25,731 nt of DNA from a virus. The first letter of the stretch is position 1. Every line of letters starts with the position of its first letter. The stretch is taken from positions 1 through 25,731 of IMG/VR virus record IMGVR_UViG_3300028840_000856; one strand, given 5' to 3'. The translations under genes were made by a program, and so were the position numbers. The notes beneath the pieces were generated by a model that saw only the letters and a list, made by a program, of their open reading frames with translations, did no database searches and was not told where the DNA came from. Shown piece by piece: positions 1,672 to 21,838 of the stretch.

Positions 1672-1696
1672 GTTAACGTTAACTGCCAGTTGGCAG
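1672..1696. promoter_or_regulatory. Two adjoining palindromes in the DUF2815 leader
   Basis: GTTAACGTTAAC (1672-1683) is a perfect 12-bp palindrome. It abuts CTGCCAGTTGGCAG (1683-1696), which as minus-strand RNA folds into a CTGCC/GGCAG stem with a 4-nt loop. They lie between the -10 box and the ribosome-binding site. They may be a 5' mRNA hairpin, an operator, or both. Confidence 0.5.
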
Positions 1697-1700
1697 GGTT

Positions 1701-1729
1701 AGGATACCAGATTGCCGGGGCAATGTCAA
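1701..1729 (-). promoter_or_regulatory. Sigma70-like promoter of the DUF2815 gene
   Basis: Minus strand: TTGACA (1729-1724), 17-nt spacer, TATCCT (1706-1701). The -35 box is perfect and the -10 matches 4 of 6. The predicted start near 1694 falls at the palindrome of 1683-1696, giving a possible 5' stem-loop. Confidence 0.65.
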
Positions 1730-1730
1730 C

Positions 1731-1979
1731 CTACTGCTGAGTAGGCGGCTGGACACCGGGGTGCCCTTGCTCTTCGATTATATCAGCCAGTTCGCGCAAA
1801 GCGACTGATAAAGTGTGGGGTTCAGCGTTCGTTACATAGGAAATTTTCGGTTTTTCCTCCATGGAGAACGCCACAATAGTAAACGCCATGGGTACGTCCT
1901 GATCCTTTTCCAGTTGCGCGTCAAGCCCTTCAGCGTGACGTTGCAACAGACTATACAGTAAGGTTTCTTTCGGGTTCAT
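1731..1979 (-). CDS. Hypothetical small protein
   Basis: 82 residues from the ATG at 1979, which has GGAG 8 nt upstream inside the end of the preceding DUF2800 gene. An in-frame GTG at 1988 lacks such a site. No family is recognised. The protein looks compact: an N-terminal amphipathic helix (KETLLYSLLQRHAEGLDAQL), a strand FTIVAFSM, then a helix ALRELADIIEEQ and a Pro/Gln-rich end. It lies 3 nt from the DUF2800 stop, so translation is probably coupled, and it sits between the nuclease and the ssDNA-binding protein. This arrangement suggests, but does not show, a part in replication or recombination. Confidence 0.75.
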   Translation of the reverse strand: MNPKETLLYSLLQRHAEGLDAQLEKDQDVPMAFTIVAFSMEEKPKISYVTNAEPHTLSVALRELADIIEEQGHPGVQPPTQQ

Positions 1980-1981
1980 AG

Positions 1982-3199
1982 TTACCACTCCAGTAAGTCA
2001 TCGTCATCATCGTTGTCAATAAGGTGCGCGAATTCTGCTTCAATAGCAGGTCGCACAGGTGCGCCGGGGGCACTAAGCTTGACAAAGTTAGTACCGTTTT
2101 CCGGGGTTTCCACATTGTTGTTGAGGAAAGTTTGAATAGCGTCTACTGATATAGCCTTACCTCTCAGAATAGTCTCTACCTGAGAAGGGGTTTTCAGTGC
2201 TGGTGCAGTGTTGTAGTCAGCCGGGTGTAGGCCAAGTTTGTTGAGTGCCTTTTTTACGTCCTGTTCTGCTTGGCAGTAGCGCCGGTTGGCCCGTTTCCTC
2301 ACCAGCTTGTAACCGGGCAGTATGTCACCCTGTTCAGCCTTAGCGTGTTCCTTGGCCTTGACCGCATGAATCAGGTCAATGATCTGGTCACCGTGGTCAA
2401 TCAGTAGTTTGGATTGTGCCCGTGTCAGTACCTCGGTGTCCGGCAACCGTATAGGTACCTCTTCCTCTAGATTGTCCGGCTCTATCACACCGTCAAACTC
2501 TATCATAGCAGCGTCGAGTACATAGTCATACGCTTCTTTGCAGTGAGACTTGCCGGGGCAATACTGGCACTGGTGTTCACCGGGAATACGGGGCGCGGTT
2601 GGGTCTTGACTAGCCAAAATCTTTGGTATTAGAGTTTCCTTGCCCCACTCAACCAGTTCTTTGGCTGTGTAGGTTTCGCTCCTGATTGGCCCGTCAATAT
2701 GGTCAACAGCAGACTGCCCTATGGTTATCTTAACCTTGCGAATTTTGTGCTTCCTGTGATAGGCCAGCAGTGCGCAAAGGGCATAAGTCATAAGCTGGGG
2801 GTTGTCAGACACTTCTACTACAGTGCCTTTGCCAGTCTTCAGGTCAACGATTTCCAGCAGCCCGTTGCGTTCTACTATAGAGATAAAGTCCATGGTACCA
2901 CCAACTTCATCACCGTCTATACCGTGTTGTTCAAGGGGTTTCCACCCCTCCAGAGATAGGTTTTTCTCCGGGTGCCAGACATCAGACTTAGGTATCAGCC
3001 GCTGGCAATATTGAACATAATCTACAATAGCAGCAAGAAGTTGTTCGTCAAACATATGACCACATGTACCACGTCTGGCCCAAACACTGTCACCGCTTTC
3101 CCGTTCGGGTGGTGGCAGTGACTCAATCAAGTTCAGGGAACCCGGACACTCGAAAAGCCGGTACATACTACTTGGGGCAAAGCGTCTGTGTTCACTCAT
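1982..3199 (-). CDS. DUF2800 family PD-(D/E)XK nuclease (Cas4/RecB-like)
   Basis: 405 residues. The nuclease core is readable: H48, then GGTMDF with D104, then EIVDLKTGKG with D119 and K121 as the PD-(D/E)XK pair, and Q135 in the following helix. C18 together with C211, C214 and C220 is the cysteine set that holds a 4Fe-4S cluster in Cas4/AddB-type exonucleases. DUF2800 proteins are predicted DNA exonucleases that work with the DUF2815 ssDNA-binding protein, two genes downstream here. The C-terminus is NDDDDDLLEW, an acidic-aromatic tail echoed at the start of the protein at 15962. The ATG at 3199 overlaps the upstream stop by 8 nt, implying translational coupling. The nuclease call is strong; the actual DNA substrate is not shown. 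Confidence 0.87.
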   Translation of the reverse strand: MSEHRRFAPSSMYRLFECPGSLNLIESLPPPERESGDSVWARRGTCGHMFDEQLLAAIVDYVQYCQRLIPKSDVWHPEKNLSLEGWKPLEQHGIDGDEVGGTMDFISIVERNGLLEIVDLKTGKGTVVEVSDNPQLMTYALCALLAYHRKHKIRKVKITIGQSAVDHIDGPIRSETYTAKELVEWGKETLIPKILASQDPTAPRIPGEHQCQYCPGKSHCKEAYDYVLDAAMIEFDGVIEPDNLEEEVPIRLPDTEVLTRAQSKLLIDHGDQIIDLIHAVKAKEHAKAEQGDILPGYKLVRKRANRRYCQAEQDVKKALNKLGLHPADYNTAPALKTPSQVETILRGKAISVDAIQTFLNNNVETPENGTNFVKLSAPGAPVRPAIEAEFAHLIDNDDDDDLLEW

Positions 3200-3395
3200 G
3201 ATCTTTTCTCAACTGGCGGCGCGACACCCAAACATTATCACACCCAACGGGGTATTGTGGGTGGTTGGATGTTGTTAATTGTACCTGCACCCCATCGTTT
3301 GAGTCAGATACGTTGACGATAATTCCCTTCACTGGGATAGCAAAACGGTATCTATCATATACTACCACACGTTGTTTGATTTTAGGGTTTTTCAT
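3192..3395 (-). CDS. Hypothetical small beta-rich protein
   Basis: 67 residues with AGGAG 10 nt before the ATG, and a 4-nt ATGA overlap with the upstream Lar-like gene. The sequence alternates charged and beta-branched residues (RVVVYDRY, KGIIVNVSD, VQVQLTT, DNVWVSRRQL), which suggests a small SH3/KOW-like barrel. No catalytic motif is visible. It is translationally coupled on both sides and so belongs to the leftward replication operon. Small barrel proteins of this type often modify a partner or bind nucleic acid, but that is only inference. Confidence 0.75.
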   Translation of the reverse strand: MKNPKIKQRVVVYDRYRFAIPVKGIIVNVSDSNDGVQVQLTTSNHPQYPVGCDNVWVSRRQLRKDHE

Positions 3396-3583
3396 ATCTC
3401 TAACTCCTGCCGGGTGTTCCAGTTGGTGAGCGCTTGCCGTATGTTGTTAGACGGTTTGCCTTCGTATCCGCACCCCAACGGTTCCATACAACGTACCACA
3501 TAGCCGTCAATGATATCCACGTCTATCTGTAGGTTGCTGGTATCCTTACATTCGGGACACTTTCTAGTCTTTTGGTGTTTCAT
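3392..3583 (-). CDS. Lar-like zinc-ribbon protein
   Basis: 63 residues from the ATG at 3583, which is preceded by ACTGGAGAACC. Longer in-frame extensions overlap the upstream gene and lack such a site. The protein has C9-P-E-C12 and C32...C38, followed by A...NWNTR near the end. This is the layout of the Lar/restriction-alleviation family: two zinc knuckles, a strand GYVVRC and a terminal helix with WN. Rac-prophage Lar relieves EcoKI restriction by modulating the host enzyme, but most phage members are untested. The stop overlaps the next ATG by 4 nt. Confidence 0.65.
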   Translation of the reverse strand: MKHQKTRKCPECKDTSNLQIDVDIIDGYVVRCMEPLGCGYEGKPSNNIRQALTNWNTRQELEI

Positions 3584-3608
3584 GGTTCTCCAGTTCAGTT
3601 GTAGTGAA

Positions 3609-4739: not shown

Positions 4740-4756
4740 TATAGTCTCCTGAAAAC

Positions 4757-4783
4757 ACTACCCCGGCATTACACCGGGGTAGT
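4757..4783 (-). terminator. Hairpin terminator after the two-repeat acidic protein gene
   Basis: Arms ACTACCCCGG and CCGGGGTAGT pair over 10 bp around a 7-nt loop. On the minus strand the stem is followed by GTTTTC, a short T tract. It lies 24 nt past the stop of the gene at 4808-5362 and probably limits read-through into the operon to its left. Confidence 0.75.
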
Positions 4784-4807
4784 TTACTACAGTACCTGGA
4801 TTGTGGC

Positions 4808-5362
4808 TTACTTGGTGACAGCCTTGTAGATTTTGGCCCGCTGCTCAGCAGTCGCACCCTTGAGACCGCGAACGCTGTTCAAGCCGTTGGCCTTCAGAAT
4901 GTTGGTTGCTTTGTCGCGGCCATTGGCCTTTGCGTACTTCTGGACAGCTACCTTGACTTCCTCGGCGTCAACATCGGTGTCAAGGTCATCGTCATCGTCC
5001 ATGCCAAGGTCATCGTCATCACCAAGGTCATCATCATCGTCACCGCCAAGGTCATCGTCTTCTTCCAGCAGGTTCTTGGCAGCAGCGTAGATACCCGGCC
5101 ACTCGTCTTCTTCCAGAGTTGCCAGATTCTTGGCCCCATGGGTCTTCAGCAGGTCTTTCAGGGTTTCGGTACCCATCTCTTCACGCAGTTCAGTCAGAAC
5201 GTCTTTCAGTTCTTTCTTGGACGGTGTGTGCAGTTTCGTTGCCTTTGCCGTGGTGCCAGAAGGTACGCCACCTTCCAGAATAGTCTGTGCTGCTTCCAGT
5301 TCTTCAGCAGTGTCGAAAGTCAGCGCAAACAGCGCGGTTGCTACAATAGTGTTCTTGCTCAT
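4808..5362 (-). CDS. Acidic protein with two helical repeats joined by an Asp-rich linker
   Basis: 184 residues from the ATG at 5362 with AGGAGA 9 nt upstream; the in-frame TTG at 5389 precedes the Shine-Dalgarno and is rejected. Two related ~45-residue helical units are visible: residues 51-99 (ELKDVLTELREEMG...LLKTHGAKNLATL) and 135-183 (EVKVAVQKYAKANG...ILKANGLNSVRGL). Both follow the pattern helix, Gly, helix, xxGxxxL, acidic turn, helix. Residues 100-133 are almost only Asp, Gly and Leu, repeating DDDLG. I have seen such units at the ends of phage recombination and DNA-associated proteins, but the function is not established. A strong promoter (5416-5443) and a terminator isolate the gene, suggesting abundant protein. 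Confidence 0.8.
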   Translation of the reverse strand: MSKNTIVATALFALTFDTAEELEAAQTILEGGVPSGTTAKATKLHTPSKKELKDVLTELREEMGTETLKDLLKTHGAKNLATLEEDEWPGIYAAAKNLLEEDDDLGGDDDDDLGDDDDLGMDDDDDLDTDVDAEEVKVAVQKYAKANGRDKATNILKANGLNSVRGLKGATAEQRAKIYKAVTK

Positions 5363-5415
5363 CGGTAAAATTCTCCTGTTAAGTTTCAAGTTCTGGCTTG
5401 TTGCCAGCCGTCAAG

Positions 5416-5443
5416 ATTATAACGCCCCTTTTTTGTTTGTCAA
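5416..5443 (-). promoter_or_regulatory. Strong sigma70-like promoter with 5' stem-loop
   Basis: Minus strand TTGACA (5443-5438), 16-nt spacer, TATAAT (5421-5416): both boxes are perfect. The TTGA of the -35 box is the stop-codon end of the upstream gene. The predicted start near 5409 is followed at once by CTGGC-loop-GCCAG (5407-5393). Confidence 0.85.
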
Positions 5444-5874: not shown

Positions 5875-5903
5875 TTGACAAGGGTGCTAGGTTGTGCTAG
5901 GAT
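5875..5903 (+). promoter_or_regulatory. Rightward early promoter for the primase-helicase operon
   Basis: TTGACA (5875-5880), 17-nt spacer, TAGGAT (5898-5903). The -35 box is perfect and the -10 matches 4 of 6. The predicted start near 5910 coincides with the first bases of a perfect 10-bp hairpin. Confidence 0.75.
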
Positions 5904-5932
5904 AAAAACCTGACCCCTCGGAAGGGGTCAGG
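5904..5932 (-). terminator. Leftward terminator that doubles as the rightward 5' hairpin
   Basis: Arms CCTGACCCCT and AGGGGTCAGG form a perfect 10-bp stem around CGGA (plus strand). On the minus strand the stem runs directly into TTTTT (5908-5904), a textbook terminator. On the plus strand the same stem begins at the predicted start of the rightward transcript. It would block leftward transcription from the right arm and may shield the rightward mRNA. Confidence 0.75.
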
Positions 5933-6175: not shown

Positions 6176-8878
6176 ATGGAAGAGCACAGAGATTTCGTCA
6201 CAGTAATAAAAGGTTTGGATGGGGGCGCGTCACCCTTCGCCAAGAAATTCAGGGATGGAGAGAAGTTGCCACCCAAATACCCTACATGGCATGTTGGACA
6301 GGAAGTAGGGGTAGACAATTTGGAAGATTTGTACGGACTGATTGAGCGCTTGAGGAATAGGCGCAACTGTTGCATTATCAGGAACCGGCTGGATATCCAA
6401 AAACAGGATAGTGACCTAGCGCGGCGGCAGCGTAGCGGCGGCTGGAAGTTCAGGCGTAAACGGGGCAACTTCAAGGATGACGGCCACCATTGGGTGATGT
6501 TCGATTTCGACAGTGCTGAAATACTAGAGCCGGACAGTTGGAAGAAGACACCACAGGCTACAGCGGTAGAGGTTATTCAGGAATACCTACCAGAAGAGTT
6601 TCAGCGGGCTGGCTTCATTTGGGCCTACACTGGTAGTCACGGACTCGGTAAGCCGGGGGTGTGTCTACACTTGGTGTTCTGGATGGAGACAAAGGCCAGT
6701 AACTTTGATTGGGGGAACTGGATTGACCAGCAGGATGATCTAGATTTAGATGTCTTCGACAAGGCGCTATTCAGGCCAGCACAGGTACATATCGTTGCTG
6801 ACCCGGAACTGGTCAGGACACCAGACCCCTTTCGGGACACTGTTAGAGTAGGTTGGTGTGACGGGCCGGAAGTGCCGTTTAATCTGGACTATTCGCGAAT
6901 AGAGCCACCGAAACCGACACGCCAGTTGACGGTTTCAGATGACCACATGTTTTCGGTTCTCGAACAGTATCAACCCCTTCCTTTGCAAGCCACCTTCAAC
7001 GAATTTGTGCCCCTTCACGATATCCTAGACTATTTTGGATATGAGCAGAAAGAGCCGCGCAAGTATTTGGCACCAGCGTCTACTACAGACAGTCCGGGTG
7101 TCTGGATTGAAGAAGACAAGATATTCTCACACCACGACAATGACCCACTGAGTACAGGCCGGTACCTGACAGGCTACCAAGCGTTTTGCTTACTCTATAC
7201 TCATAGGTTGGAAGTCATGCGCGGCGGTAACAGCCTGTTTGGTGACACTGAAGCGCTGGACTCTATGCTGGATGACGTTGAGGAAGTTGACCCGGAAGCA
7301 GCACTACAGGAAGCGGATCAGCAGCAACTTGAGGATTTGGAAAAGAACCCGGATGACCTTGCGAAACAGGCCGCTTGCAAGTTGCTTCTACACTACGCTT
7401 TACACTACATCAACCAGTACTATTTCACCATTGACGTTGAGGGTAGTCTACTGGTGTACAGCATGGTGAAGTTGGAAGACGGGAACAGTAAGCAACTGGT
7501 AGGTTATACCCGTGACAAGATGAAGGCAGAGTTTTCCAAGTGGGCCTTCAAGCGGGGTGAATTCCAGATGTCACAAGCCGGGTGGGTGTACTCGGAACGG
7601 AATATAGACCTACTGGAAGAGTGGTTAGCTTGGGATTACAGGCGCAAACACCGGGGAATAGGTCTGTACTTCAACGAGCCACCGCCAAAGATGCTTGACT
7701 TGTGGGAAGGTTTTGCAGTGCCACCTAAAGAGGGTGAGTGGAACTTACTCTATAGGCATATCCACGAAGTTATTTGTGGGGGTGATGGAACTAAATTTGA
7801 TTACCTCATGGATATGCTGGCCGCTTGGGTGCAACGTCCTGAAGAGCGTTTTGGTGTTGCCCCTGTCCTGATAGGTTCACAGGGCACCGGCAAGAACATG
7901 TTTGCTAATGCCGTGGCGCGGCTGTTCAAGAAGAACAACAGAATGATAGCGTTCGACCGGGAAAGCCTATTCCTACAGTTCAATGCGCATTTGGCTAACA
8001 TTGTGCTATTTGTCGCGGATGAATTTTCACTACGGGCGGGCAAGAGTGCGGATGACGCCAACAAGCTGAAGGGCTTCATCACTGGCGATACCATGCGACT
8101 AGAGATAAAGGGCGGGGCGTTGATGCCCAATGTCGCGAATAGGATGCACTTCATTATCATCACGAACGACAGAAAGCCTATGCCTCTAGACAAAGAGGAA
8201 AGACGGTATTTCATTCTGAACGTCAGCACTTGCCGGGTAGGTGACAGGGAGTATTTCGAGCGTCTCAAGGAACACATAGACAGTGACGAAGTCATAGCAG
8301 CCTTTTTACATAGTCTCATGGAACGGCGCGTAAACTTCTCGGCACAGTATCAGGCCATGAAGACCGAAACTTTCTATGACGTGGTTGAGTATTCTGATGA
8401 CCCCTTCACGGAATGGCTGGTCAGTATGGTGGAAGAGGAAACACCGTTGCCGGGGCTGGAAGTGGCACACGCCCATGACCAAGGATTTGACTATGAAGAG
8501 TTGCCCGATTTTGGGGAATGGGTGCCAACAGGTCTACTTTACCTTTCGTATACGAAATTCTGTGATGACCTCAAGCGCTTCAAGTTCTCGAAACGGGATA
8601 TAGGGAAGCGTCTGAAGAACTTGGGCTTTGAACAGAGCCGGTCACGCCAGCACAGCAACGTCATGTACCGGGGTGCCAAGAAACACCACTATGGATACTT
8701 GATGCCTGACTTGCGCGGGCTAAAGAAGATGTTTGCCAAGGTAGTGGATAAGGAAATTGACGGGCGGGAGAGCCTTGAGGAATTTATAAGGGAACTGAAT
8801 GAGAGGGCAAGAAACAAGGAACTTGACGGTTTTGGGCCTTTAAAGGTAGTTTATGACGCTGACGAGCAGGTGGGGTGA
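6176..8878 (+). CDS. Primase-helicase: AEP-like primase fused to DUF5906/D5-type SF3 helicase
   Basis: 900 residues. The N-terminal third has archaeo-eukaryotic primase-polymerase signatures: VMFDFDS with D110 and D112 as likely metal ligands, then TGSHGLGKPGVCLHLVF with H165, then QVHIVADPEL near 202-211. The C-terminal half is a DUF5906-like AAA+ superfamily 3 helicase: Walker A GSQGTGKN (567-574, K573), Walker B VLFVADEF (D615, E616) and a sensor-1-like FIIITNDRKPM (about 659-669). Residues ~355-390 are acidic and may form a linker. It would unwind and prime the phage origin. It is the first large rightward gene, behind the promoter at 5875. Its ribosome site is weak (GGAAAA 8 nt upstream). 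The TGA overlaps the next ATG. Confidence 0.88.
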   Translation: MEEHRDFVTVIKGLDGGASPFAKKFRDGEKLPPKYPTWHVGQEVGVDNLEDLYGLIERLRNRRNCCIIRNRLDIQKQDSDLARRQRSGGWKFRRKRGNFKDDGHHWVMFDFDSAEILEPDSWKKTPQATAVEVIQEYLPEEFQRAGFIWAYTGSHGLGKPGVCLHLVFWMETKASNFDWGNWIDQQDDLDLDVFDKALFRPAQVHIVADPELVRTPDPFRDTVRVGWCDGPEVPFNLDYSRIEPPKPTRQLTVSDDHMFSVLEQYQPLPLQATFNEFVPLHDILDYFGYEQKEPRKYLAPASTTDSPGVWIEEDKIFSHHDNDPLSTGRYLTGYQAFCLLYTHRLEVMRGGNSLFGDTEALDSMLDDVEEVDPEAALQEADQQQLEDLEKNPDDLAKQAACKLLLHYALHYINQYYFTIDVEGSLLVYSMVKLEDGNSKQLVGYTRDKMKAEFSKWAFKRGEFQMSQAGWVYSERNIDLLEEWLAWDYRRKHRGIGLYFNEPPPKMLDLWEGFAVPPKEGEWNLLYRHIHEVICGGDGTKFDYLMDMLAAWVQRPEERFGVAPVLIGSQGTGKNMFANAVARLFKKNNRMIAFDRESLFLQFNAHLANIVLFVADEFSLRAGKSADDANKLKGFITGDTMRLEIKGGALMPNVANRMHFIIITNDRKPMPLDKEERRYFILNVSTCRVGDREYFERLKEHIDSDEVIAAFLHSLMERRVNFSAQYQAMKTETFYDVVEYSDDPFTEWLVSMVEEETPLPGLEVAHAHDQGFDYEELPDFGEWVPTGLLYLSYTKFCDDLKRFKFSKRDIGKRLKNLGFEQSRSRQHSNVMYRGAKKHHYGYLMPDLRGLKKMFAKVVDKEIDGRESLEEFIRELNERARNKELDGFGPLKVVYDADEQVG

Positions 8879-9111
8879 TGGCTAAGAACAACATCAAAAT
8901 ATTCCCTAACCCACGGGTTAGTGTTGATGGGATTTTAGAGGCAGCACGAAATTGGGATATGCAAGAAGTATTGATTATCGGGTGGAACAAAAATGGTGAG
9001 TTTACCATAGGGGGAAGTAACGGAGAATTGAAGAGTATTTCATGGTTGTTAAAGAATGGGGAAAGTTGGCTTTCAGATGAAATAATAGCCGCTATGGAGG
9101 GAGAGGGGTGA
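8878..9111 (+). CDS. Hypothetical small protein coupled to the primase-helicase
   Basis: 77 residues from the ATG at 8878, one base of which is shared with the upstream TGA; AGGTGGGG lies just upstream. The GTG at 8875 is a weaker alternative. The sequence reads as strand-helix-strand-strand (NIKIFPNP, VDGILEAARNWDMQEVLIIGWNKNGEFTIGGSNG) and then a short helix. This 'IIGWNKNGEFTI..S' form resembles small proteins often found in phage replication operons. No function is known. Coupling implies production with the helicase. Confidence 0.75.
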   Translation: MAKNNIKIFPNPRVSVDGILEAARNWDMQEVLIIGWNKNGEFTIGGSNGELKSISWLLKNGESWLSDEIIAAMEGEG

Positions 9112-9266
9112 TTTTGAAAAACCCCGAAAAAAGCAGGGTAATGTTTCATTTTGCAACGGGATTTTCGATGTATCGACTGAGCGCACAGAAAGAAGAAGTC
9201 TTGACCCGGAACGGGTTATGTCAGGAAAATCTACATGGAACAGGGCAAGAGGGGGTAACTCTCTGA
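9108..9266 (+). CDS. Possible small protein (52 aa)
   Basis: An open frame of 53 codons begins at a GTG (9108) that overlaps the preceding stop as GTGA; an in-frame TTG at 9114 has GAGAGGGG 5 nt upstream and is an alternative. The product has a Lys/Arg-rich start, a central FATGFSMYRLSAQ segment and a Gly-rich end. No family and no strong compositional signal. The only support is the overlap, the Shine-Dalgarno and the lack of a better candidate in this stretch. Confidence 0.38.
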   Translation: MILKNPEKSRVMFHFATGFSMYRLSAQKEEVLTRNGLCQENLHGTGQEGVTL

Positions 9267-9436
9267 AACACATACCCTTTGTTAATTTAAGTTCTACTTA
9301 GTTCTAGGTTCTAGGTTAAGGTTTCAGAGTATAGAAAGGTATGATATAAAATGTGATATAAATATCAGAGGAATATAGTGCTACGTGGCTGGCACGGCAC
9401 GTAGCACGCGAGATGTCCAACCAAGAGGTGATGAAG
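9267..9436. other. AT-rich gap with short repeats and a perfect hairpin
   Basis: The stretch contains repeats of TTCTAGG/TTCTACT near 9291-9315 and two GATATAAA words (near 9344-9360). It ends with GTGCTACGTG (9378-9387) and CACGTAGCAC (9398-9407), perfect 10-bp arms around a 10-nt loop, 29 nt before the next start codon. There is no T tract after it, so it is more likely a leader structure or operator than a terminator. Confidence 0.6.
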
Positions 9437-9865
9437 ATGAACGAAGAGCGCGAAAGAGAACTGAGAGAAAGAGAAGAACGGCTGACAGAACTTGTCCGGC
9501 AATTTGGTGTTAGTTGTCAACAGGCGGCTCAGGCCATGCAGAAGTTTGGTGAGTTGGTAGCCAAGATGAATTTGGAGCCAGAGCCAGAGCAGGAAGAAGA
9601 CACCGGGCCAAAGACGTTGTTTGGTGGTCGGCCTGACAGGACGATACCAGCGGGTGCCAAGTTTGGAGAGCAGAAAGACCAAGTTATTCAATTTCCAAAG
9701 GGCATGACAGAGAATATGGCAATACAGCACATTGCTGAGTCACGGTGCCCATTCTGCTTACAGTCAGGGCTTGACCGTGACCTCATGAGCGAAAAGTACT
9801 ATTGTACTTCCTGTCAGGCTGTCTTTGGCCCTGCTGGAGAAGGGGCGCGTTATGGGAAAGCGTGA
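9437..9865 (+). CDS. Coiled-coil and zinc-ribbon protein
   Basis: 142 residues from the ATG at 9437, which has AGAGGTG 6 nt upstream. An upstream in-frame ATG at 9413 has no good ribosome site. Residues 1-45 form a strongly charged coiled coil (ERERELREREERL). A Glu/Pro linker (46-56) follows. C104-P-F-C107 and C123-T-S-C126 form a zinc ribbon. Such zinc ribbons in phage proteins often bind DNA, RNA polymerase or a replication partner. No family name can be given. It overlaps the next gene by 14 nt. Confidence 0.75.
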   Translation: MNEERERELREREERLTELVRQFGVSCQQAAQAMQKFGELVAKMNLEPEPEQEEDTGPKTLFGGRPDRTIPAGAKFGEQKDQVIQFPKGMTENMAIQHIAESRCPFCLQSGLDRDLMSEKYYCTSCQAVFGPAGEGARYGKA

Positions 9866-10142
9866 TGAACTGAACCCGGCTCACCCTGTCACACAAGCTA
9901 TGTCAGACCAGTGGCATACTCTGTGTGCGCTTCTCCTTAACAGGATAGCACCGGACACACTTGAGACTGTCCTGACTAAGGAAGAGATAGAGCAACTTAG
10001 CACTACACCGGCAGGGCCATCCCCTGTCCTGACGGTGTATGAAAGAGAAGACGGCTTGCACTTGAAACTGGTCAGTAGAGCCGAAGGGGAAGCAATAGCA
10101 CAGGCCGAACACAAACAGCTTACGGGTGGCAAAAACCACTGA
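9852..10142 (+). CDS. Hypothetical small protein
   Basis: 96 residues from the ATG at 9852, with GGAGAAGGGG 6-15 nt upstream. The N-terminal part (TQAMSDQWHTLCALLLNRIAPDTLETVLTKEEIEQL) is helical. The C-terminal part (PVLTVYEREDGLHLKLVSRAEGEAIAQAE) is strand then helix. I recognise it only as resembling small phage proteins with a 'D.WHKL.ALLM.K' start, of unknown role, that occur in replication modules. It overlaps the zinc-ribbon gene and is therefore co-translated. Confidence 0.72.
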   Translation: MGKRDELNPAHPVTQAMSDQWHTLCALLLNRIAPDTLETVLTKEEIEQLSTTPAGPSPVLTVYEREDGLHLKLVSRAEGEAIAQAEHKQLTGGKNH

Positions 10143-10681: not shown

Positions 10682-10716
10682 GTACAGTCATACACTGCTA
10701 GGGTGTATGGCTGTAC
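10682..10716 (+). terminator. Long stem-loop after the phosphatase gene
   Basis: GTACAGTCATACAC and GTGTATGGCTGTAC pair over 14 bp with one G-T wobble, around loop TGCTAGG. There is no T tract after it, so it may end transcription inefficiently, protect the 3' end, or belong to the adjoining repeat region. Confidence 0.45.
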
Positions 10717-10743
10717 TATACTACGCTGTATGTACCTACAGGC

Positions 10744-10907
10744 AAAAATCCCTATGAAATCAGGTAGTACATTACTACAGTTTCTGGACAGTACGTACCT
10801 ACTGTCAAAAATCCCTATGAAATCAGATAGTACATTACTACAGCGGGTGAGTAGTATGTACGTATTGGTTAAAAATCCCTATGAAATCAGGTAGTACATT
10901 ACTACAG
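10744..10907. repeat. Three 37-bp direct repeats (iteron-like), 63/64-bp period
   Basis: The 37-bp unit begins AAAAATCCCTATGAAATCAG and ends TACATTACTACAG. Copies lie at 10744-10780, 10807-10843 and 10871-10907. The first and third are identical, the second has one G-to-A change. Each contains a GTAGTA-CAT-TACTAC dyad (weakened in copy 2), and the first two preceding spacers carry a TAxGTACCTA core inside their own inverted repeat. A 63-bp period is six helical turns, so the sites face the same side of the DNA, as expected for an origin or a regulatory array. Confidence 0.8.
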
Positions 10908-10917
10908 GAGAACAGCA

Positions 10918-11127
10918 ATGGCGGCAAGCAGGAAAGGTGAAATGGTCACTCACACTTCAGCAGTAGGTGAGATGTTGTGTGACAGGTGCGATAGTATTGT
11001 ACGACCTTCTATGTTAGAGGGTAGGTGGTGGTGTGACGGGTGCGACTCTGACCCTACAGTACAGACCTTGACCTCACACGTACACAAAGGGGCTAAAGTA
11101 ACAGTGACCAAGAGGAAACGGAAATGA
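10918..11127 (+). CDS. Small zinc-ribbon protein
   Basis: 69 residues; the ATG has AGGAG 8 nt upstream, where the last 37-bp repeat ends, so the repeat array is this gene's leader. C21-D-R-C24 and C39-D-G-C42 form a zinc ribbon. The C-terminus is a basic tail (KRKRK). The combination suggests nucleic-acid binding, and its place directly after the iteron-like array makes it a candidate binder of those repeats, but that is inference. It has a 4-nt ATGA overlap with the next gene. Confidence 0.75.
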   Translation: MAASRKGEMVTHTSAVGEMLCDRCDSIVRPSMLEGRWWCDGCDSDPTVQTLTSHVHKGAKVTVTKRKRK

Positions 11128-11492: not shown

Positions 11493-11984
11493 ATGACAAC
11501 AAAAACTATGACTGTAGTGGAAGAGGTCTTCCGCTGGTTAGAATCTAACCCTGAAGTGCGGGTGTTCTGTACGAAGAAAATACACGAAAACTTACCATGG
11601 TTGGACAGCAACCGCATTTCATCGGCTCTGTCTCTATTCTGTAAGGAAACCCGGTTGAGGCTCATTGGCGTGACTGGCGCTAACAAGGCCAACGTGTACG
11701 AACGTACTGACCTGTTCGACTCACCCCGCAAGTTTGCCGGGGGCAGGAAGTACGCACCCCGCAACATCAAGCCGGGGTGTAAGGTGCCTGTCAACGAAGA
11801 CCGCGAAAAACTACCACTGCTGGACGAAGACGGCAACCCGGTACCAGAACCGGAAACTGAACCCACCATAACCAACAGGGAGAGACTACTACAGAAGTTG
11901 GAAGAGCTAACCGAACGCCAGTTGCAACTAGCTACAGAGATAGAAGGGTTGCAGCGTTTTGTAAGGGACGAAATCATACTATAG
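11493..11984 (+). CDS. Probable winged-helix protein with C-terminal coiled coil
   Basis: 163 residues behind the shared leader CCGAACTGGAGAACTGGC. Residues 6-70 read as a winged helix: a VVEEVFRWLESN helix, TKKIHENLP, then NRISSALSLFCKETRLRLIGVTG as recognition helix and wing. Residues ~90-130 are a Pro/Glu-rich linker (including PEPETEPTI). The last 35 residues (RERLLQKLEELTERQLQLATEIEGL) form a coiled coil, probably for dimerisation. A transcription regulator or DNA-binding accessory protein is likely; no specific family or target is known. Confidence 0.7.
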   Translation: MTTKTMTVVEEVFRWLESNPEVRVFCTKKIHENLPWLDSNRISSALSLFCKETRLRLIGVTGANKANVYERTDLFDSPRKFAGGRKYAPRNIKPGCKVPVNEDREKLPLLDEDGNPVPEPETEPTITNRERLLQKLEELTERQLQLATEIEGLQRFVRDEIIL

Positions 11985-12177: not shown

Positions 12178-12394
12178 TGCGAAAAAATCTTTCACGGTTT
12201 AGTGTAAGTGCCTGTTCTGCTACGGAAAGAAAATTCAATTTTTCTTTTCGTAGCGGTTCAGGCACTTATGCGTTGGGATAGTGTAAGCCACTGTTCGTGT
12301 ACGAAAAGAAAAAACTTGACATTTACGCCAAGGTGCGTAGAATATTCCCCATGGTCGAGTGACCTGACAACCTAAACCGAACTGGAGAACTGAC
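12178..12394 (+). promoter_or_regulatory. Intergenic regulatory segment with inverted repeats and promoter
   Basis: This gap holds three related arms: AAGTGCCTG...GCTACGGAAAGAAAA (12206-12233), its complement TTTTCTTTTCGTAGC...CAGGCACTT (12240-12267), and a second complement TACGAAAAGAAAA (12300-12312). The middle arm can pair with either neighbour. The promoter at 12316 follows, then the leader of the next gene. Confidence 0.65.
12316..12343 (+). promoter_or_regulatory. Sigma70-like promoter with short 5' stem-loop
   Basis: TTGACA (12316-12321), 16-nt spacer, TAGAAT (12338-12343, 5 of 6). GGTC-GAGT-GACC (12353-12364) can form a small hairpin just after the predicted start, at the place where the promoters at 13388 and 14258 have theirs. 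Confidence 0.75.
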
Positions 12395-12865
12395 ATGGCT
12401 TACACAACTTTCGACATCGCAAACGCTTCCTCTTCTTATGACGTTGACGTTTACTGCAAGACCCTCAAGGTAGTCAAGGTGAAGACTGCACGCTGGTTGC
12501 TCTGTGAGAATGACGGCACCGTGGTTTTCTCTGCACGGTCTGAGGGTGAGATTCTGAACCGGGCTGGCAAGTTGGAGATTCGTCGCAGCCGGGGCAACCT
12601 GAATGGCTTCCGCTTTGGCTCTAAGATCGAAGTTGAGACCGTTGTTGCTTACGCTGACCGGGTTTGGGGTGGCATGTACGAACTGACTGCCACACGGTTT
12701 GACGGTCACTACTGGTGGACTAAGGTAGTAGACGCTGAGACCGGCACCGTTTCTGAAGAGGTTCGCGCTGATTACTTCATCAACTACATGCGCATTCCTC
12801 ACAACGTCGAAACTGAACTGGCCGTTGAACTGGCCGCTTCACAGGGCGCTCGTTTCGAGGACTAA
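12395..12865 (+). CDS. Hypothetical protein of the promoter-cassette cluster
   Basis: 156 residues, with ACTGGAGAACTGAC before the ATG. No family was recognised. The chain is strand-rich (DVDVYCKTLKVVKVKTARWLLCENDGTVVFS spans roughly 16-47, with C21 and C37) and rich in aromatic residues (DGHYWWTKVVDAETG). Codons are of the highly expressed type (CTG, GCT, CGT, GAC). It has its own promoter (12316). Together these point to an abundant early protein, possibly acting on a host target, but no function can be read from the sequence. Confidence 0.75.
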   Translation: MAYTTFDIANASSSYDVDVYCKTLKVVKVKTARWLLCENDGTVVFSARSEGEILNRAGKLEIRRSRGNLNGFRFGSKIEVETVVAYADRVWGGMYELTATRFDGHYWWTKVVDAETGTVSEEVRADYFINYMRIPHNVETELAVELAASQGARFED

Positions 12866-12905
12866 CAGGATAGCACCAACGGGCCAAGGATGGCCCCTCA
12901 ACCTA
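12862..12905. repeat. 44-bp direct repeat, copy 1 (with hairpin)
   Basis: Identical to 13108-13151 over 44 bp. It starts at the TAA stop of the preceding gene and contains GGGCC-AAGGAT-GGCCC (12881-12896), a small hairpin. The two copies flank the RMF/CrpP-like gene. Confidence 0.85.
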
Positions 12906-12928
12906 ACAGACTAGACTGGAGAACTGAC

Positions 12929-13111
12929 ATGAGTTTACCAACAAACGGACAACAGCAGATGCTTGACCAGTGGGAAGTTGAAGCTGAAGTCAGGAAAGTA
13001 GCAGACAACGGACAGGCCGCACGACAGGAAGGCAAGAGTCTGGAAGACAACCCCCACATGACCAACTCTTTGCAGTGGGAAGCGTGGCGGGCCGGGTGGC
13101 ACAGAGTCTAA
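12929..13111 (+). CDS. RMF/CrpP-like small protein
   Basis: 60 residues from the ATG at 12929, which has ACTGGAGAACTGAC upstream. An in-frame ATG at 12890 would give a longer product, but it lies in the 44-bp repeat. The C-terminal half (AARQEGKSLEDNP, then SLQWEAWRAGW) follows the pattern A..EG......NP..........WRxGW of the ribosome modulation factor family, which includes CrpP. RMF shuts down ribosomes by promoting 100S dimers. A phage protein of this type might alter host translation, but many members have other or unknown targets. The N-terminal 28 residues are not part of that pattern. The gene is bracketed by perfect 44-bp repeats. Confidence 0.6.
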   Translation: MSLPTNGQQQMLDQWEVEAEVRKVADNGQAARQEGKSLEDNPHMTNSLQWEAWRAGWHRV

Positions 13112-13387: not shown

Positions 13388-13416
13388 TTGACAAACGGAA
13401 ACAACTCCCTCATAAT
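13388..13416 (+). promoter_or_regulatory. Cassette promoter (copy A) with 5' stem-loop
   Basis: TTGACA (13388-13393), 17-nt spacer, CATAAT (13411-13416, 5 of 6). The stem CGGTCT-GTTG-AGACCG (13425-13440) begins at or next to the predicted start. From 13408 to 13440 it is identical to the cassette at 14278-14310. Confidence 0.85.
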
Positions 13417-13468
13417 CTCTTCCACGGTCTGTTGAGACCGGACAACCTAACCGAACTGGAGAACTGAC

Positions 13469-14172: not shown

Positions 14173-14244
14173 TTTTCTTTCCCTAGCAACACAGGGGCTT
14201 ACAGTCGAAAGACCGTAAGCCCCTGTTCGTGTAAGGAAAGAAAA
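14173..14244 (+). terminator. Long two-stage stem-loop with GNRA tip
   Basis: Outer arms TTTTCTTTCC / GGAAAGAAAA (10 bp) and inner arms ACAGGGGCTTAC / GTAAGCCCCTGT (12 bp) enclose GTC-GAAA-GAC, a GNRA-type tip. It follows the stop of 13469-14164 and precedes the next promoter, so it probably closes one cassette; the T tract after the inner stem is interrupted. Confidence 0.7.
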
Positions 14245-14257: not shown

Positions 14258-14286
14258 TTGACAACGGTAAACTGTTCCCTCATAAT
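14258..14286 (+). promoter_or_regulatory. Cassette promoter (copy B) with 5' stem-loop
   Basis: TTGACA (14258-14263), 17-nt spacer, CATAAT (14281-14286), then the same CGGTCT/AGACCG stem (14295-14310). It drives the genes at 14331 and 14584. Confidence 0.85.
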
Positions 14287-14330
14287 CTCTTCCACGGTCT
14301 GTTGAGACCGCAACCAACTGGAGAACTGAC

Positions 14331-14555
14331 ATGACCAACTCACACTTCAACGCTCTTGCTCTTGCTGCTGAACTGGCCCGTAAAGGTGCCGATATCGCCA
14401 CTCACCTGATGGACGATATCACTTTTGAAGACTACCGTTTCAGTGGTCTGGACAACAGCCCGCTGGCCCTGTCCAAAGCAATCTCTGTCCTGACCGACAT
14501 GGACGCTGCTATCCTAGAGCGTGACCTGAACCAAATCACTGCTGACTACCTGTAA
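14331..14555 (+). CDS. Hypothetical small acidic protein
   Basis: 74 residues after AACCAACTGGAGAACTGAC. Helical and acidic, with LALAAELARKGADIATHLMDDITF, then KAISVLTDMDAAILERDLN. No family was recognised. It shares the style, size and leader of the next gene and could be an early host-directed protein. The codon pattern is that of well-expressed genes. Confidence 0.7.
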   Translation: MTNSHFNALALAAELARKGADIATHLMDDITFEDYRFSGLDNSPLALSKAISVLTDMDAAILERDLNQITADYL

Positions 14556-14803: not shown

Positions 14804-14875
14804 TTTTCTTTTCCTACTAACACAGGGACTTACAGCCGGTTTGGTGTAAGTCCCTGTTTGTGTAAGGAAAGAAAA
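14804..14875 (+). terminator. Long stem-loop, second copy of the cassette type
   Basis: Inner arms ACAGGGACTTAC (14822-14833) and GTAAGTCCCTGT (14846-14857) match the copy at 14173 with a compensatory G-C to A-T change at the same pair, and outer arms TTTTCTTTTCC / GGAAAGAAAA pair with one bulge. It lies after the stop at 14802 and before the next promoter. Confidence 0.7.
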
Positions 14876-14888: not shown

Positions 14889-14917
14889 TTGACAAGCGGA
14901 AACTGTTCCCTCATAAT
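14889..14917 (+). promoter_or_regulatory. Cassette promoter (copy C)
   Basis: TTGACA (14889-14894), 17-nt spacer, CATAAT (14912-14917). The sequence from TTGACA to CTTCCAC is nearly the same as copy B, but the CGGTCT/AGACCG stem is missing. Confidence 0.82.
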
Positions 14918-14956
14918 CTCTTCCACTGTTTCACTGCAACCAACTGGAGAACTGAC

Positions 14957-15178: not shown

Positions 15179-15670
15179 ATGAACGAACTGACCGCACACA
15201 TCAAAGCCGAAAACGCCAAAACCGCTGCATGGGTAGCAGAAGACCCTGACAACCGTTGGGCTGGCATGATAGTTGAAGACCCGGCTCACTGGGCTGAATA
15301 CGGAATCACTACTGTAGCAGGTTATGAGCGCCACATGATGATCGAAACCTACGTAGACCTTTACAAGAGCGTTCACGGGATCAAACCCCGTTGGGTCAAC
15401 TTTGACGATATGTCTGACGAAGAGTTGAAGCAGGACTATGACAACCTACTTGTGGCTCTGGACGAAGAGAACGCTAGGCAAGCAGAAGCTGAGAAGCGGG
15501 CCGTCAAGGAATTTGAGGCACTGGTAGAGTCTACCATAGCTTGCGGGGCTGGTGACCGTAAAACTGCACTTCGCTGGATTCGTGACGGTGAAGGGGAACA
15601 GGCCAAATTCGATGACGGTTATTTTGAACACTGCCACGGTCTGCCCTATGGCTACCTGAAGGCCGCTTGA
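15179..15670 (+). CDS. Conserved phage hypothetical protein ('YG.KPRWVNFDDMS' / 'LPYGYL')
   Basis: 163 residues after CACTGGAGAACTGAC. Residues 60-90 carry VHGIKPRWVNFDDMSDEEL and residues 122-160 carry GAGDRKTALRWI...LPYGYL. I know these two blocks from unnamed proteins in many T4-like and siphovirus genomes, where they are annotated hypothetical. The function is unknown. A Glu/Ala-rich helix joins the blocks. Its stop TGA is part of the -35 of the following promoter. It belongs to the cassette transcript from 14889. Confidence 0.75.
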   Translation: MNELTAHIKAENAKTAAWVAEDPDNRWAGMIVEDPAHWAEYGITTVAGYERHMMIETYVDLYKSVHGIKPRWVNFDDMSDEELKQDYDNLLVALDEENARQAEAEKRAVKEFEALVESTIACGAGDRKTALRWIRDGEGEQAKFDDGYFEHCHGLPYGYLKAA

Positions 15671-15708
15671 CACCACCCGGCTACCCTGTTATACTGACAG
15701 GGTAGCCG
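15667..15708 (+). promoter_or_regulatory. Promoter with its -10 box in the loop of a 12-bp palindrome
   Basis: TTGACA (15667-15672), 17-nt spacer, TATACT (15690-15695). CGGCTACCCTGT (15678-15689) and ACAGGGTAGCCG (15697-15708) are perfect arms, and the seven loop bases are TATACTG. The same DNA could serve as a 3' hairpin for the upstream mRNA, or an operator. Confidence 0.75.
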
Positions 15709-15978: not shown

Positions 15979-16510
15979 CGCATGGTATGATGATGACCTA
16001 CTGGAATGGGGTGACAACTTACTGGAATGGGGTGACGAAACCCCTGTCCAGTCAGGTGCGTTCTACCCACCAACAGAACCCGCAAACCCGTGGGAACTGG
16101 AGCCAGAGGTCAAGCGCATGATAGCAGCAGGGCACAACCCGGTCATGACACGCCCTGACTTTTTCACGCCCCTCAGAGGGGGCAACCGGGCGTCACATGA
16201 CTTCTACTATTTCGCAGAGGCATACGACAGGAAAAAGGACATGAATCTCAGTCACTTAGCACATTCAGCGGTATCTCAGATGCGGGTTAACTCGCAGCAT
16301 CTACCCGTGTTTGACGCGCAAGGTACTGAATTAGAAGGGCTTGTGTCCAGTGCTACCCTTGGCGCGGAATTTGTCAAGCTTATCATCAAGTTACCGGCTG
16401 GTAGTTATCAGAACTTGCGTGACGCTGACGGCTGGCCGTATATCTCTGTCTGGTTCTCTACTGTGACAGGTAAGTCACTGGATGACAAGGTACCTTTCAC
16501 CCTGAACTAG
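15962..16510 (+). CDS. Hypothetical protein with duplicated LLEWGD motif
   Basis: 182 residues; ATG overlaps the previous stop and has only a weak GGGG upstream, so coupling is likely. The N-terminus has DDDLLEWGDNLLEWGDE, the result of a tandem DNA duplication of TACTGGAATGGGGTGAC. The same acidic DDDLLEW occurs at the end of the DUF2800 nuclease. The rest (from about residue 40) is an unknown domain with strand FVKLIIKLPAG and a YISVWFST segment near the end. It ends the small-gene cluster, just before the packaging genes. Confidence 0.72.
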   Translation: MTSDILAWYDDDLLEWGDNLLEWGDETPVQSGAFYPPTEPANPWELEPEVKRMIAAGHNPVMTRPDFFTPLRGGNRASHDFYYFAEAYDRKKDMNLSHLAHSAVSQMRVNSQHLPVFDAQGTELEGLVSSATLGAEFVKLIIKLPAGSYQNLRDADGWPYISVWFSTVTGKSLDDKVPFTLN

Positions 16511-16535
16511 ACAAATCAGAAAAGTTCGCTATAAT
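16508..16535 (+). promoter_or_regulatory. Promoter of the packaging/head operon
   Basis: TAGACA (16508-16513, 5 of 6), 16-nt spacer, TATAAT (16530-16535, perfect). The -35 starts at the stop codon of the upstream gene. A 10-bp stem (16536-16561) follows at once. Confidence 0.75.
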
Positions 16536-16561
16536 GGCCCGTAAATTCCGGTTTGCGGGCC
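16536..16561 (+). promoter_or_regulatory. Stem-loop abutting the terminase small subunit start codon
   Basis: GGCCCGTAAA and TTTGCGGGCC pair over 10 bp (one U-G) around TTCCGG. The stem ends one base before the ATG at 16562 and overlaps the predicted start of transcription. No clear Shine-Dalgarno is seen, so structure may control initiation. Confidence 0.6.
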
Positions 16562-17020
16562 ATGTTTATGTCTACCAGTCACCCCTATGAAAGAGTTTAT
16601 GCACGACAGGCCAAGAAATTGTGTCTGCTCGGTGCTACGATTAAAGAGTTGGCTGACTTCTTTGACGTACCCGAAGCTACCATAGAAGCATGGAAGAAGA
16701 AACACTACAACTTTAGGGAAGCGCTCAGAATAGGGCGCATGGACGCTGATGCCAATGTAGCAAAAGCCCTGTACAAACGGGCTTGCGGCTTCTCGGTACT
16801 AGAGGACAAGGTCTTCTGCAATCAGCTTGGCGAAACCACTATAGTACCAGTGCGAAAACACTTTGCCCCTGATGTGGGCGCGGCCAAATTCTGGCTGAAG
16901 AACCGTAGAGCTACCGACTGGAAAGAGAATCCTGAAGAGGGCAGCGGTGAAGGCACTAAGACTGTAGAATTCAAGGTGATACTGGCTGATGGAACTGTCG
17001 TTAACAGAACCGCAGAGTGA
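16562..17020 (+). CDS. terS: Terminase small subunit
   Basis: 152 residues from the ATG at 16562 (a second ATG at 16568 is possible). Residues ~20-45 (LGATIKELADFFDVPEATIEAWKKKHYNF) form a helix-turn-helix that recognises phage DNA, as is usual in small terminases. The central part (ALYKRACGFSVLEDKVF) and the ending DVGAAKFWLKNRRATDWKEN are the repeated pattern of the family: 'P...A..FWLKNR....W.'. It selects the packaging site and activates the large subunit, whose gene overlaps it by 32 nt. Expression is from 16508. Confidence 0.85.
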   Translation: MFMSTSHPYERVYARQAKKLCLLGATIKELADFFDVPEATIEAWKKKHYNFREALRIGRMDADANVAKALYKRACGFSVLEDKVFCNQLGETTIVPVRKHFAPDVGAAKFWLKNRRATDWKENPEEGSGEGTKTVEFKVILADGTVVNRTAE

Positions 17021-18281: not shown

Positions 18282-18282
18282 C

Positions 18283-19776: not shown

Positions 19777-20891
19777 GCGACTCAGTCGAAGACCTGTATG
19801 TCAGGCACCAAGTAGACCTTTCGAGATACGCCAGTAGTTTTGCTGGCACTATGTCTGCTGTCCTGAAACGTGCCCATCAAGACATAGCTAACCGGGTGCT
19901 GACAGAGAAGCAAACACCCTTCCAGCGTCAGCGGGCGTTAGCTATTGCTGGTGACATCCAAGCCATGCTTGAAGCCGGATATGCTCAAACGGTGGGCAAG
20001 ACTGCCACAGAGATGCGGGGGCTTGTTGTCAACGAAGCGGCGTGGAATCAGGAAGCGCTACAGGTGGCTTCTGGAGAAAAAGCTGTCCGGGTGTCTGCTG
20101 GTGCTGTATATGTAGCGGCAACTGCCAAACCCTACGAAGGGGCTACAATGAAGTCATGGTATGACAAGTTGCAGCGTGATGAACAGCGTTTACTGATAAA
20201 CACAGTGCAGACAGGATTTGTCACAGGCCAGACCAACCAGCAAATAGCAAACAGTCTCAAGCCGGTGTTCAGAAGGGCTGAAAACAACGTGTCTACCATA
20301 GCGCGTACTTCTGTACAGCACTATGCCGGGGCTGCTCGACTTGCCACCCTGAACGAAAACAAGAACATAACAGACGGCTACATTTGGGCTTCCACCCTTG
20401 ACGGGCGTGTGACCATGGAGATTTGCGCACCACGAGACGGTCAACACTACACCCTGACAGGTGAACCGATTGACCACCCATATCCTGAACTTGGTGGGCC
20501 GGGTAATGCGCACTGGAACTGTAGGTCTACAGCAGTGCCACGTATCAAGGGGGTTAATCAGGAAAAGGATGACCGGCCAAGTTTTGACTACAATCAGGAA
20601 GCCAACACAAAGGCGCGGTCAACGGTTAGGCGTGACCCTGACACTAACAAGGTAGTGCCAAAGGGTGCCCGTAACCCTGACGCCAAGCGCATGGGTAAGC
20701 CGGTGCAAACTACTGACAAGTTCCCCGGCTGGTTTGAACGTCAGCCAAAGTGGTTCCAGCAAGACTATTTGGGGCCAGAACGTTTCAAGATGTATGATAG
20801 TGGCACACTGTCACTGAAAAGTTTCAGCACCAAGGACGGTAGTCTCTTGACGCTGAATGAACTGAGACAGCGTTTTCCGTCTGTTTCTTAA
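19773..20891 (+). CDS. Minor head protein, SPP1 gp7 / Mu F-like
   Basis: 372 residues with a 4-nt overlap with the portal. The signature is in the middle third: ARTSVQHYAGAARLATLNEN near 177-197, then WASTLDGRVTMEICAPRDGQH near 209-229, and AHWNCRSTAVP near 247-257. The C214/C251-type cysteine plus H-x-N-C-R block is the Phage_Mu_F (PF04233) pattern. These proteins sit inside the head and in some phages are injected or aid DNA ejection. The last 90 residues are a basic region followed by a strand-rich end. Genomic order portal-minor head-scaffold-coat fits. Confidence 0.9.
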   Translation: MSDSVEDLYVRHQVDLSRYASSFAGTMSAVLKRAHQDIANRVLTEKQTPFQRQRALAIAGDIQAMLEAGYAQTVGKTATEMRGLVVNEAAWNQEALQVASGEKAVRVSAGAVYVAATAKPYEGATMKSWYDKLQRDEQRLLINTVQTGFVTGQTNQQIANSLKPVFRRAENNVSTIARTSVQHYAGAARLATLNENKNITDGYIWASTLDGRVTMEICAPRDGQHYTLTGEPIDHPYPELGGPGNAHWNCRSTAVPRIKGVNQEKDDRPSFDYNQEANTKARSTVRRDPDTNKVVPKGARNPDAKRMGKPVQTTDKFPGWFERQPKWFQQDYLGPERFKMYDSGTLSLKSFSTKDGSLLTLNELRQRFPSVS

Positions 20892-20913
20892 ACTGTAGCT
20901 GGAGGTAGCTAAA

Positions 20914-21738
20914 ATGATGTTGAAAAATGCAATTCACAGGGCCATACACGTTCCTACTCCTGTAGTAGGTTTTGGTGAGGGTGACGATGACGTTGCTGCT
21001 AAGATAGCAGCGGCTGTTGAAGAGGCCAACACAGCAGCAGCGGCCAAGTACGAAGCTGATACAGCGGGCCTGAAAGCCAAGGTTGAAGAGGCACTCAAGG
21101 AAAAGAAAACGCTGGCAGGTAAGTTAGCAGCGTTTGATGGTCTTGACCCTGCTGCTATGAAGACCATGATGGCCCGGTTCGAAAATGACGAAGAGGCGCA
21201 ACTGTTGGCTGCTGGTAAGGTAGACGAAGTGGTTGCCAAGCGCATTGAGAAGCGTGAAGCTGACTTCTCCACCCAAACCGCTACCCTACAGGAACAGGTT
21301 GACGGGCTGACCAAGGAAAACGAAGGTTGGAAGAGCAAGTACAACCGGCGCACAGTGGAAACTCAGTTGCGGGCACTGGCAGAAAAGGCCGGGGCGCTTC
21401 CCGGTGCCATTGATGACATTATCCGGCGCGGTCTGGATATGTACACAGTGGCCGAAGATGACAGCCTTGAAGCCCGTGACAAGGATGGCAATCTGCGTAA
21501 AACGGCTGACGGCAAGAGTCTGTTGACTGCTGATGTCTGGATCAACGAACTGAAAGAATCTGAGAATACTTCACACTATTTCCCCGGTTCTCAGGGTGCC
21601 GGGGCCGGTGGGTCAGGTGGTCAGGGCCACAAGCAGTCTGATATTGACGTTGCTATGGACAAGGCGGCTGAAGCTGGTGATATGGCAACTTATCGACGGT
21701 TGCGGGCTGAGAAGAAAAAGGCCGCTTCTGGTAGGTAA
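20914..21738 (+). CDS. Scaffold protein
   Basis: 274 residues with GGAGG 9 nt before the ATG. It is almost entirely charged and helical (Ala, Glu, Lys-rich with heptads in 25-75 and 100-145, such as AKVEEALKEKKTLAGKLA), followed by a Gly-rich loop (SQGAGAGGSGGQG, about 229-241) and a basic end, RLRAEKKKAASGR. This is typical of scaffolding proteins that direct coat assembly. It lies directly before the coat gene; the basic C-terminal helix is the usual coat-binding element. No protease motif is visible. Confidence 0.85.
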   Translation: MMLKNAIHRAIHVPTPVVGFGEGDDDVAAKIAAAVEEANTAAAAKYEADTAGLKAKVEEALKEKKTLAGKLAAFDGLDPAAMKTMMARFENDEEAQLLAAGKVDEVVAKRIEKREADFSTQTATLQEQVDGLTKENEGWKSKYNRRTVETQLRALAEKAGALPGAIDDIIRRGLDMYTVAEDDSLEARDKDGNLRKTADGKSLLTADVWINELKESENTSHYFPGSQGAGAGGSGGQGHKQSDIDVAMDKAAEAGDMATYRRLRAEKKKAASGR

Positions 21739-21758
21739 ATCAGTAACTTACAGAAGAC

Positions 21759-21786
21759 TTGACATTCTCAGAGCGTAAGTTATAAT
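21759..21786 (+). promoter_or_regulatory. Consensus promoter of the major coat protein gene
   Basis: TTGACA (21759-21764), 16-nt spacer, TATAAT (21781-21786): both perfect. It is followed by the hairpin of 21802-21838 near the predicted start at 21793. Confidence 0.88.
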
Positions 21787-21801
21787 CCGATGGTATAGGG
21801 G

Positions 21802-21838
21802 TAGGGTGACTGTCCGGCAGGGCCAGACGGTCACCCTA
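21802..21838 (+). promoter_or_regulatory. 5' stem-loop of the coat mRNA
   Basis: TAGGGTGAC and GTCACCCTA pair over 9 bp; the stem continues with a U-G pair, GTC/GAC, one mismatch and GG/CC, around CAGGG. No T tract follows. It starts about 9 nt after the predicted transcription start. Confidence 0.7.

Follow-up and report, generated by a model that had tools for sequence, protein, structure and literature searches.

T4-like phages reportedly carry composite promoter-terminator motifs called PeSLs (Arbiol 2010; Comeau 2014), and the transcript of T7 gene 10 starts in a stem-loop that precedes a strong ribosome site. Stabilizing stem-loops are found at the 5' termini of the ompA and papA mRNAs (Emory, Bouvet and Belasco 1992; Bricker and Belasco 1999; as cited in PMC3997798). 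RppH and 5'-end-dependent RNase E require single-stranded 5' ends, B. subtilis RppH requires at least two unpaired nucleotides, and bla mRNA is stabilized by an appended 5' hairpin (PMC3997798). Such 5' stem-loops have so far been known as protectors of single model mRNAs.

We analyzed a viral record of 25,731 bp (hereafter the window, meaning this whole stretch), which most likely represents half of a tailed phage genome. As in ompA and papA, a short stem at or near the 5' end, here a predicted one, is followed by a single-stranded ribosome site; unlike in those mRNAs, the arrangement occurs repeatedly within a single phage genome, on several stems of unrelated sequence, and stabilization would follow by analogy. 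The T7 gene 10 leader shares the stem-loop at the transcript start and the strong ribosome site after it, but T7 uses its own polymerase, whereas the promoters here are of the host sigma70 type. Like PeSLs as reportedly described, the elements form a repeated intergenic cassette with a stem-loop and a host-type promoter before small genes; we found five repeated intergenic units that combine a sigma70-type promoter with a covarying upstream hairpin. They differ from PeSLs as so described in that the cassette includes, in addition, a 5' hairpin and a fixed ribosome site, the upstream hairpin has imperfect U-tails, and the phage is not T4-like, encoding a P22-type coat, a DUF4055 portal and a VapE-like primase. 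Each half of the design has a precedent, in ompA/papA-type 5' stems and, reportedly, in T4 PeSL cassettes; the novelty is that phages of two lineages use them repeatedly at the predicted +1 and with stems unrelated to each other.

The window also encodes an Enc34-type ssDNA-binding protein and a DUF2800/PD-(D/E)XK nuclease. Its terminase shares 43-44% identity with those of Guernseyvirinae-type phages, and its structural genes are kin of Guernseyvirinae. No close DNA relatives were found in the phage collection searched, viral contigs scanned with the terminase and exonuclease gave no usable relatives, and Rfam and tRNA scans returned no matches. Searching by pattern for the repeated ribosome site retrieved IMGVR_UViG_3300028840_000981 (G001; 28,926 bp). 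Because the ends of the two records overlap exactly over 43 bp in opposite orientation (window 25689-25731, G001 28884-28926) and the strand of the long genes in G001 matches the window, they most likely make up a single phage genome of about 54.6 kb, one half each. G001 served as an independent test set, outside what the first-pass annotation of the window had covered. A distant relative, IMGVR_UViG_3300026026_000014 (G004), shares with the window phage the genes for terminase, portal, scaffold and coat (37-51% identity); it is AT-rich and carries its own nuclease and ssDNA-binding genes. Scanning bacterial genomes by pattern for the cassette gave matches near chance level, and the host was not found there.

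The first-pass annotation had listed eight promoters with a stem-loop at or close to the predicted start (Table 1). All eight are true consensus matches (scores 10-12 of 12) and an inverted repeat does lie at or near each quoted stem, but placement at the 5' terminus is clean only at 5416, 5875, 13388 and 14258. The 5875 hairpin was rated excellent (p 0.001), and the stems of 13388 and 14258 were good (p about 0.005-0.05 each); since the latter two are identical, they represent one copied element. The position had been described as constant, which did not hold over the eight sites, as 1701, 16508 and 21759 deviate. At 1701, the likeliest +1 (G1694) falls within the 5' arm, with p 0.008 if the whole stem is counted and 0.25 if a start at 6-10 nt is required. 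At 16508, the left arm (16536-16541) occupies the interval from -10 to +1 and, because it precedes +1, lies outside the transcript of that promoter. Four promoters absent from the list (10126, 14889, 15667 and 15951) are equally good and have no stable 5'-terminal stem. A hairpin close to the start site was significant at only 7-8 of the 19 intergenic promoters in both genome halves, not at nearly every promoter as had been proposed. The annotation thus caught a real signal, but it listed a favorable subset and overstated its uniformity; a hairpin near every promoter is a truer description than the same position at every promoter, because several other promoters overlap inverted repeats elsewhere. 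Long inverted repeats that immediately follow a stop codon enclose promoter elements at window 15678-15708 (the -10) and at G001 2549-2573 (the -35); these repeats are perhaps merged terminator-promoters or operators.

Table 1. Promoters, hairpins and related features of the window and of G001 (window coordinates unless stated otherwise; distances are from the -10 element to the start of the stem)
Feature	Position	Strand	Remarks
Promoter TTGACA-17-TATCCT, sigma70-type	1701-1729	-	Ambiguous member
Stem CTGCC-aact-GGCAG	1683-1696	-	Starts 5 nt after -10
Promoter TTGACA-16-TATAAT, consensus	5416-5443	-	Score 12/12
5' hairpin CTGGC-aacaa-GCCAG	5393-5407	-	9 nt after -10; good, p 0.01-0.05
Promoter TTGACA-17-TAGGAT, extended -10	5875-5903	+	
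5' hairpin CCTGACCCCT-cgga-AGGGGTCAGG, 10 bp, loop CGGA	5909-5932	+	-18.7 kcal/mol; 6 nt after -10
Long inverted repeat, 17 bp	12217-12256	+	Upstream of promoter 12316
Promoter TTGACA-16-TAGAAT	12316-12343	+	Score 11/12
Hairpin GGTC-gagt-GACC, only 4 bp	12353-12364	+	Weak, p 0.05-0.26; degenerate GGTC-family member
Promoter TTGACA-17-CATAAT	13388-13416	+	Score 11/12
5' hairpin CGGTCT-gttg-AGACCG	13425-13440	+	9 nt after -10; +2 if +1 is A13424
Upstream hairpin of cassette	14173-14244	+	Inner stem 14192-14225; outer arms U-rich/A-rich
Promoter TTGACA-17-CATAAT	14258-14286	+	Score 11/12
5' hairpin CGGTCT-gttg-AGACCG	14295-14310	+	9 nt after -10; same letters as 13425-13440
Ribosome site ACTGGAGAACTGACATG	14317-14333	+	Repeats at 12381, 12915, 13455, 14943, 15165; five times in G001
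Upstream hairpin, second window copy of cassette	14804-14873	+	Inner stem 14823-14856
Cassette promoter	14889-14917	+	Leader CACTG-ttt-CACTG instead of hairpin; counter-example
Promoter with -10 within 14-bp inverted repeat 15678-15708	15667-15708	+	No 5'-terminal stem; counter-example
Promoter TAGACA-16-TATAAT with inverted repeat 16534-16563	16508-16563	+	Counter-example
Consensus promoter before P22-type coat gene	21759-21786	+	Score 12/12
Large leader hairpin, -32 kcal/mol	21799-21841	+	At least 13 nt after -10, about +7; leader about 175 nt
Second stem in 21759 leader	21916-21940		
Upstream hairpins in G001	864-939, 11636-11709, 12797-12876 (G001)		

The hairpin excess at predicted 5' ends is more than chance. 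Comparison with shuffled leaders, a check that the first-pass annotation had itself proposed, bore out the signal: at the 19 intergenic promoters of the window and G001, hairpin starts 6-10 nt after the -10 exceeded dinucleotide shuffles (Fisher 4.5e-4), and with the GGTC family described below counted once, the window phage alone gave Fisher 0.015-0.024. We then profiled arm starts from -69 to +65 around promoters in 27 windows of 5 nt. An arm started 6-10 nt after the -10, at the predicted +1/+2, in 7 of 19 promoters of the window phage (p up to 0.05; Fisher 2.1e-4) and in 6 of 10 in G004 (Fisher 2.4e-6), where all six stems differ from each other. This was the only clearly enriched of the 27 positions in both phages; the next-best in the window phage, arm starts from -59 to -55 (Fisher 0.02), is the location of the upstream hairpins. 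The promoter lists behind this profile were partly hand-curated, and figures from an automatic promoter filter are safer: 4 of 7 in G004 (Fisher 2.9e-4), against 4 of 36 in random viral contigs and 1 of 11 in other coat-gene relatives (together 5/47, near background). The random contigs were the yield of a search with a short -10 pattern and served only as controls. A metagene of 80 strong promoters from unrelated contigs showed no start-site hairpin excess. Coat-gene leaders of most relatives, G004 excepted, were strongly structured and showed no clear pattern of a promoter plus a 5' stem. Hafnia phage TS33 offered too small a number of promoters for a comparison.

Six 5' stems have GGTC...GACC in common, at promoters 12316, 13388 and 14258 of the window and at 942, 1284 and 11721 of G001; the stem arms are kept and the loop has 4 or 6 nt. 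The stems had been called unrelated, which is correct between some promoters but not for these six, copies of one cassette. Most stems of this family sit in a repeated unit spread over both genome halves, ordered as upstream hairpin, A-rich stretch, TTGACA...CATAAT promoter, 5' hairpin and ribosome site, the ribosome-site string being AACTGGAGAACTGACATG. Such a cassette would give a gene its own insulated transcript. In two cassette copies, CACTG-N3/4-CACTG takes the place of the GGTC hairpin (window 14924-14936, promoter 14889; G001 12923-12936, promoter 12888), with the arms kept and the loop differing.

Strong covariation was found in the upstream hairpin, an element absent from the first-pass annotation. 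Across its five copies, six pairs are changed on both sides, none of 500 shuffles reached the covariation score, and slid structures scored far lower. The copy at 14173-14244 lies immediately 3' of the preceding stop codon, and its 3' arm holds the A-rich stretch upstream of the -35. The tails after the inner stem range from TTTGTGT/TTCGTGT to GTTTTTGT, with short or interrupted U-tracts, so that by its sequence this hairpin may act as a weak terminator and as a 3' stabilizer. We rejected intrinsic termination for the 5' hairpins, which on the sense strand lack a U-tract, the stems being followed by CAACC, GTACAACG or AACTTG.

A second lineage, a family of contigs with Prim-Pol primases, was found among viral contigs through the ribosome-site string AACTGGAGAACTGACATG or a variant of it and not through hairpins; comparison with the window phage revealed no convincing shared genes. 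Most of its distinct promoter-bearing leaders have a hairpin at +1, for example ACGGT/ACCGT, ACGGTT/AACCGT and GGUUGGCG/UGCUGGCC; the hairpins comprise CACGGTTgagaAACCGTG, CACGGTtgaacACCGTG, ACGGTaaaccACCGT, GGTTGGCGtagTGCTGGCC with variants, and AGCTcAGTAattTACTaAGCT. The short leader of L144/L150/L201 does not conform, nor does one copy in L200, a contig in which the unit of promoter, 5' hairpin and ribosome site occurs three times (7350-10132), the 3' arm being lost in the third. In the alignable leaders of this lineage, one pair went from UA to CG, a change on both sides, and several changes keep G-U pairing. Covariation of the 5' hairpin, which the first-pass annotation had suggested looking for, did not exceed that of shuffles in this one alignable set, and an arm-swap test there was weak (p 0.04).

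We give about an even chance to the 5' hairpins being built-in 5'-end protectors that slow decay and prevent outside sequence from pairing with the ribosome site. About half of the strong promoters are predicted to yield mRNAs that begin with a small hairpin. The 5' arm would begin at the predicted +1 or +2 and be followed by 10-25 unstructured nucleotides and the strong ribosome site; from their predicted starts, GGTC-family transcripts would carry one unpaired A and then a stem of 5-6 bp. If these leaders fold in vivo as predicted, neither RppH nor the 5' sensor of RNase E, presumably the enzymes involved, would find enough unpaired nucleotides at the 5' end, and decay would be slower. The annotation had invoked this mechanism, and it agrees with PMC3997798. 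Protection of the 5' end is the most economical reading because RppH and RNase E need single-stranded ends and a hairpin stabilizes bla mRNA, and the position lock combined with different stems in G004 and the second lineage is the outcome expected of selection for 5'-terminal structure. About half of the promoters have no hairpin, including the cassette copies at 14889 and G001 12888 and the third copy in L200, which speaks against protection.

The nearest rival to 5'-end protection, in our view unlikely, is that the hairpins insulate translation, the stem locking the first 15-20 nt away from the ribosome site with any effect on decay being secondary. Translation would then be high and independent of context, and the conserved unstructured stretch and single strong ribosome site ACTGGAGAACTGACATG, with its many repeats, that come after the hairpins are in line with this. 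Insulation needs no exact +1 start, yet the enrichment is confined to 6-10 nt after the -10, and the same ribosome site is also found within operons and behind promoters that have no hairpin. The +1 inverted repeats might instead be DNA sites for repressors or activators, comparable to the lac operator: they overlap promoters, GGTC/GACC recurs in six of them, and sense and antisense stems did not differ in overall stability (Wilcoxon p 0.32). But most stems within a given phage are dissimilar and cannot all answer to a single regulator; the distance between half-sites changes by 2 bp among GGTC-family members, a variation more in keeping with a hairpin than with a dimer operator of fixed spacing; and the stems of G004 and of L142/L147/L208 use G-U pairs, which are mismatches in a DNA palindrome. 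At these promoters, we did not find one palindrome with fixed half-site spacing repeated at several promoters, the arrangement of lac-type operators. As the stems differ between promoters and their spacing varies, operators are quite improbable as a common explanation. Because the 5' hairpins lack significant covariation in the one alignable set and stability is equal overall between sense and antisense, an RNA role is what we infer rather than something proven, and the stems may act at the DNA level instead.

Duplication of a hairpin-bearing promoter-leader cassette, with the rest being chance stems and no genome-wide selection, would account for the six stems that form one family and for the weaker statistics of the window phage once that family is collapsed. 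This explanation, to which we likewise assign a small probability, is already weakened by G004, which has six different stems at the same position, and the second lineage has still others. It is very improbable that the hairpins are recognition tags, bound by a phage or host protein such as an RNA-binding regulator or an antitermination complex and thereby marking phage mRNAs; the 5' arm ACGGT does recur in unrelated phages, but the other stems have no common loop or stem motif and none matched an Rfam family.

A broader proposition, which we regard as unlikely, is that host-polymerase transcripts of some phages carry, promoter by promoter, unrelated +1 hairpins as structural caps, such that these mRNAs outlast those of the host; selection would maintain the caps through nothing but their position and pairing, and two unrelated lineages or more would have evolved or acquired them. 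If this were true, 5'-end-dependent decay would be a general pressure on phage transcripts, the units would provide compact, ready-made expression cassettes, and phage yield would be predicted to depend less on the stems in rppH mutants.

Two further repeats were seen in the window. A 63-nt unit with the core AAAAATCCCTATGAAATCAGGTAGTACATTACTACAG occurs three times in tandem at 10728-10917, before the gene at 10918 and adjoining an inverted repeat at 10682-10716; this is possibly an iteron, origin or operator array. Asp-rich repeats (DDDDLGDDDDLGMDDDDD) are encoded at 4980-5060 (minus strand), in the protein encoded at 4808-5389.
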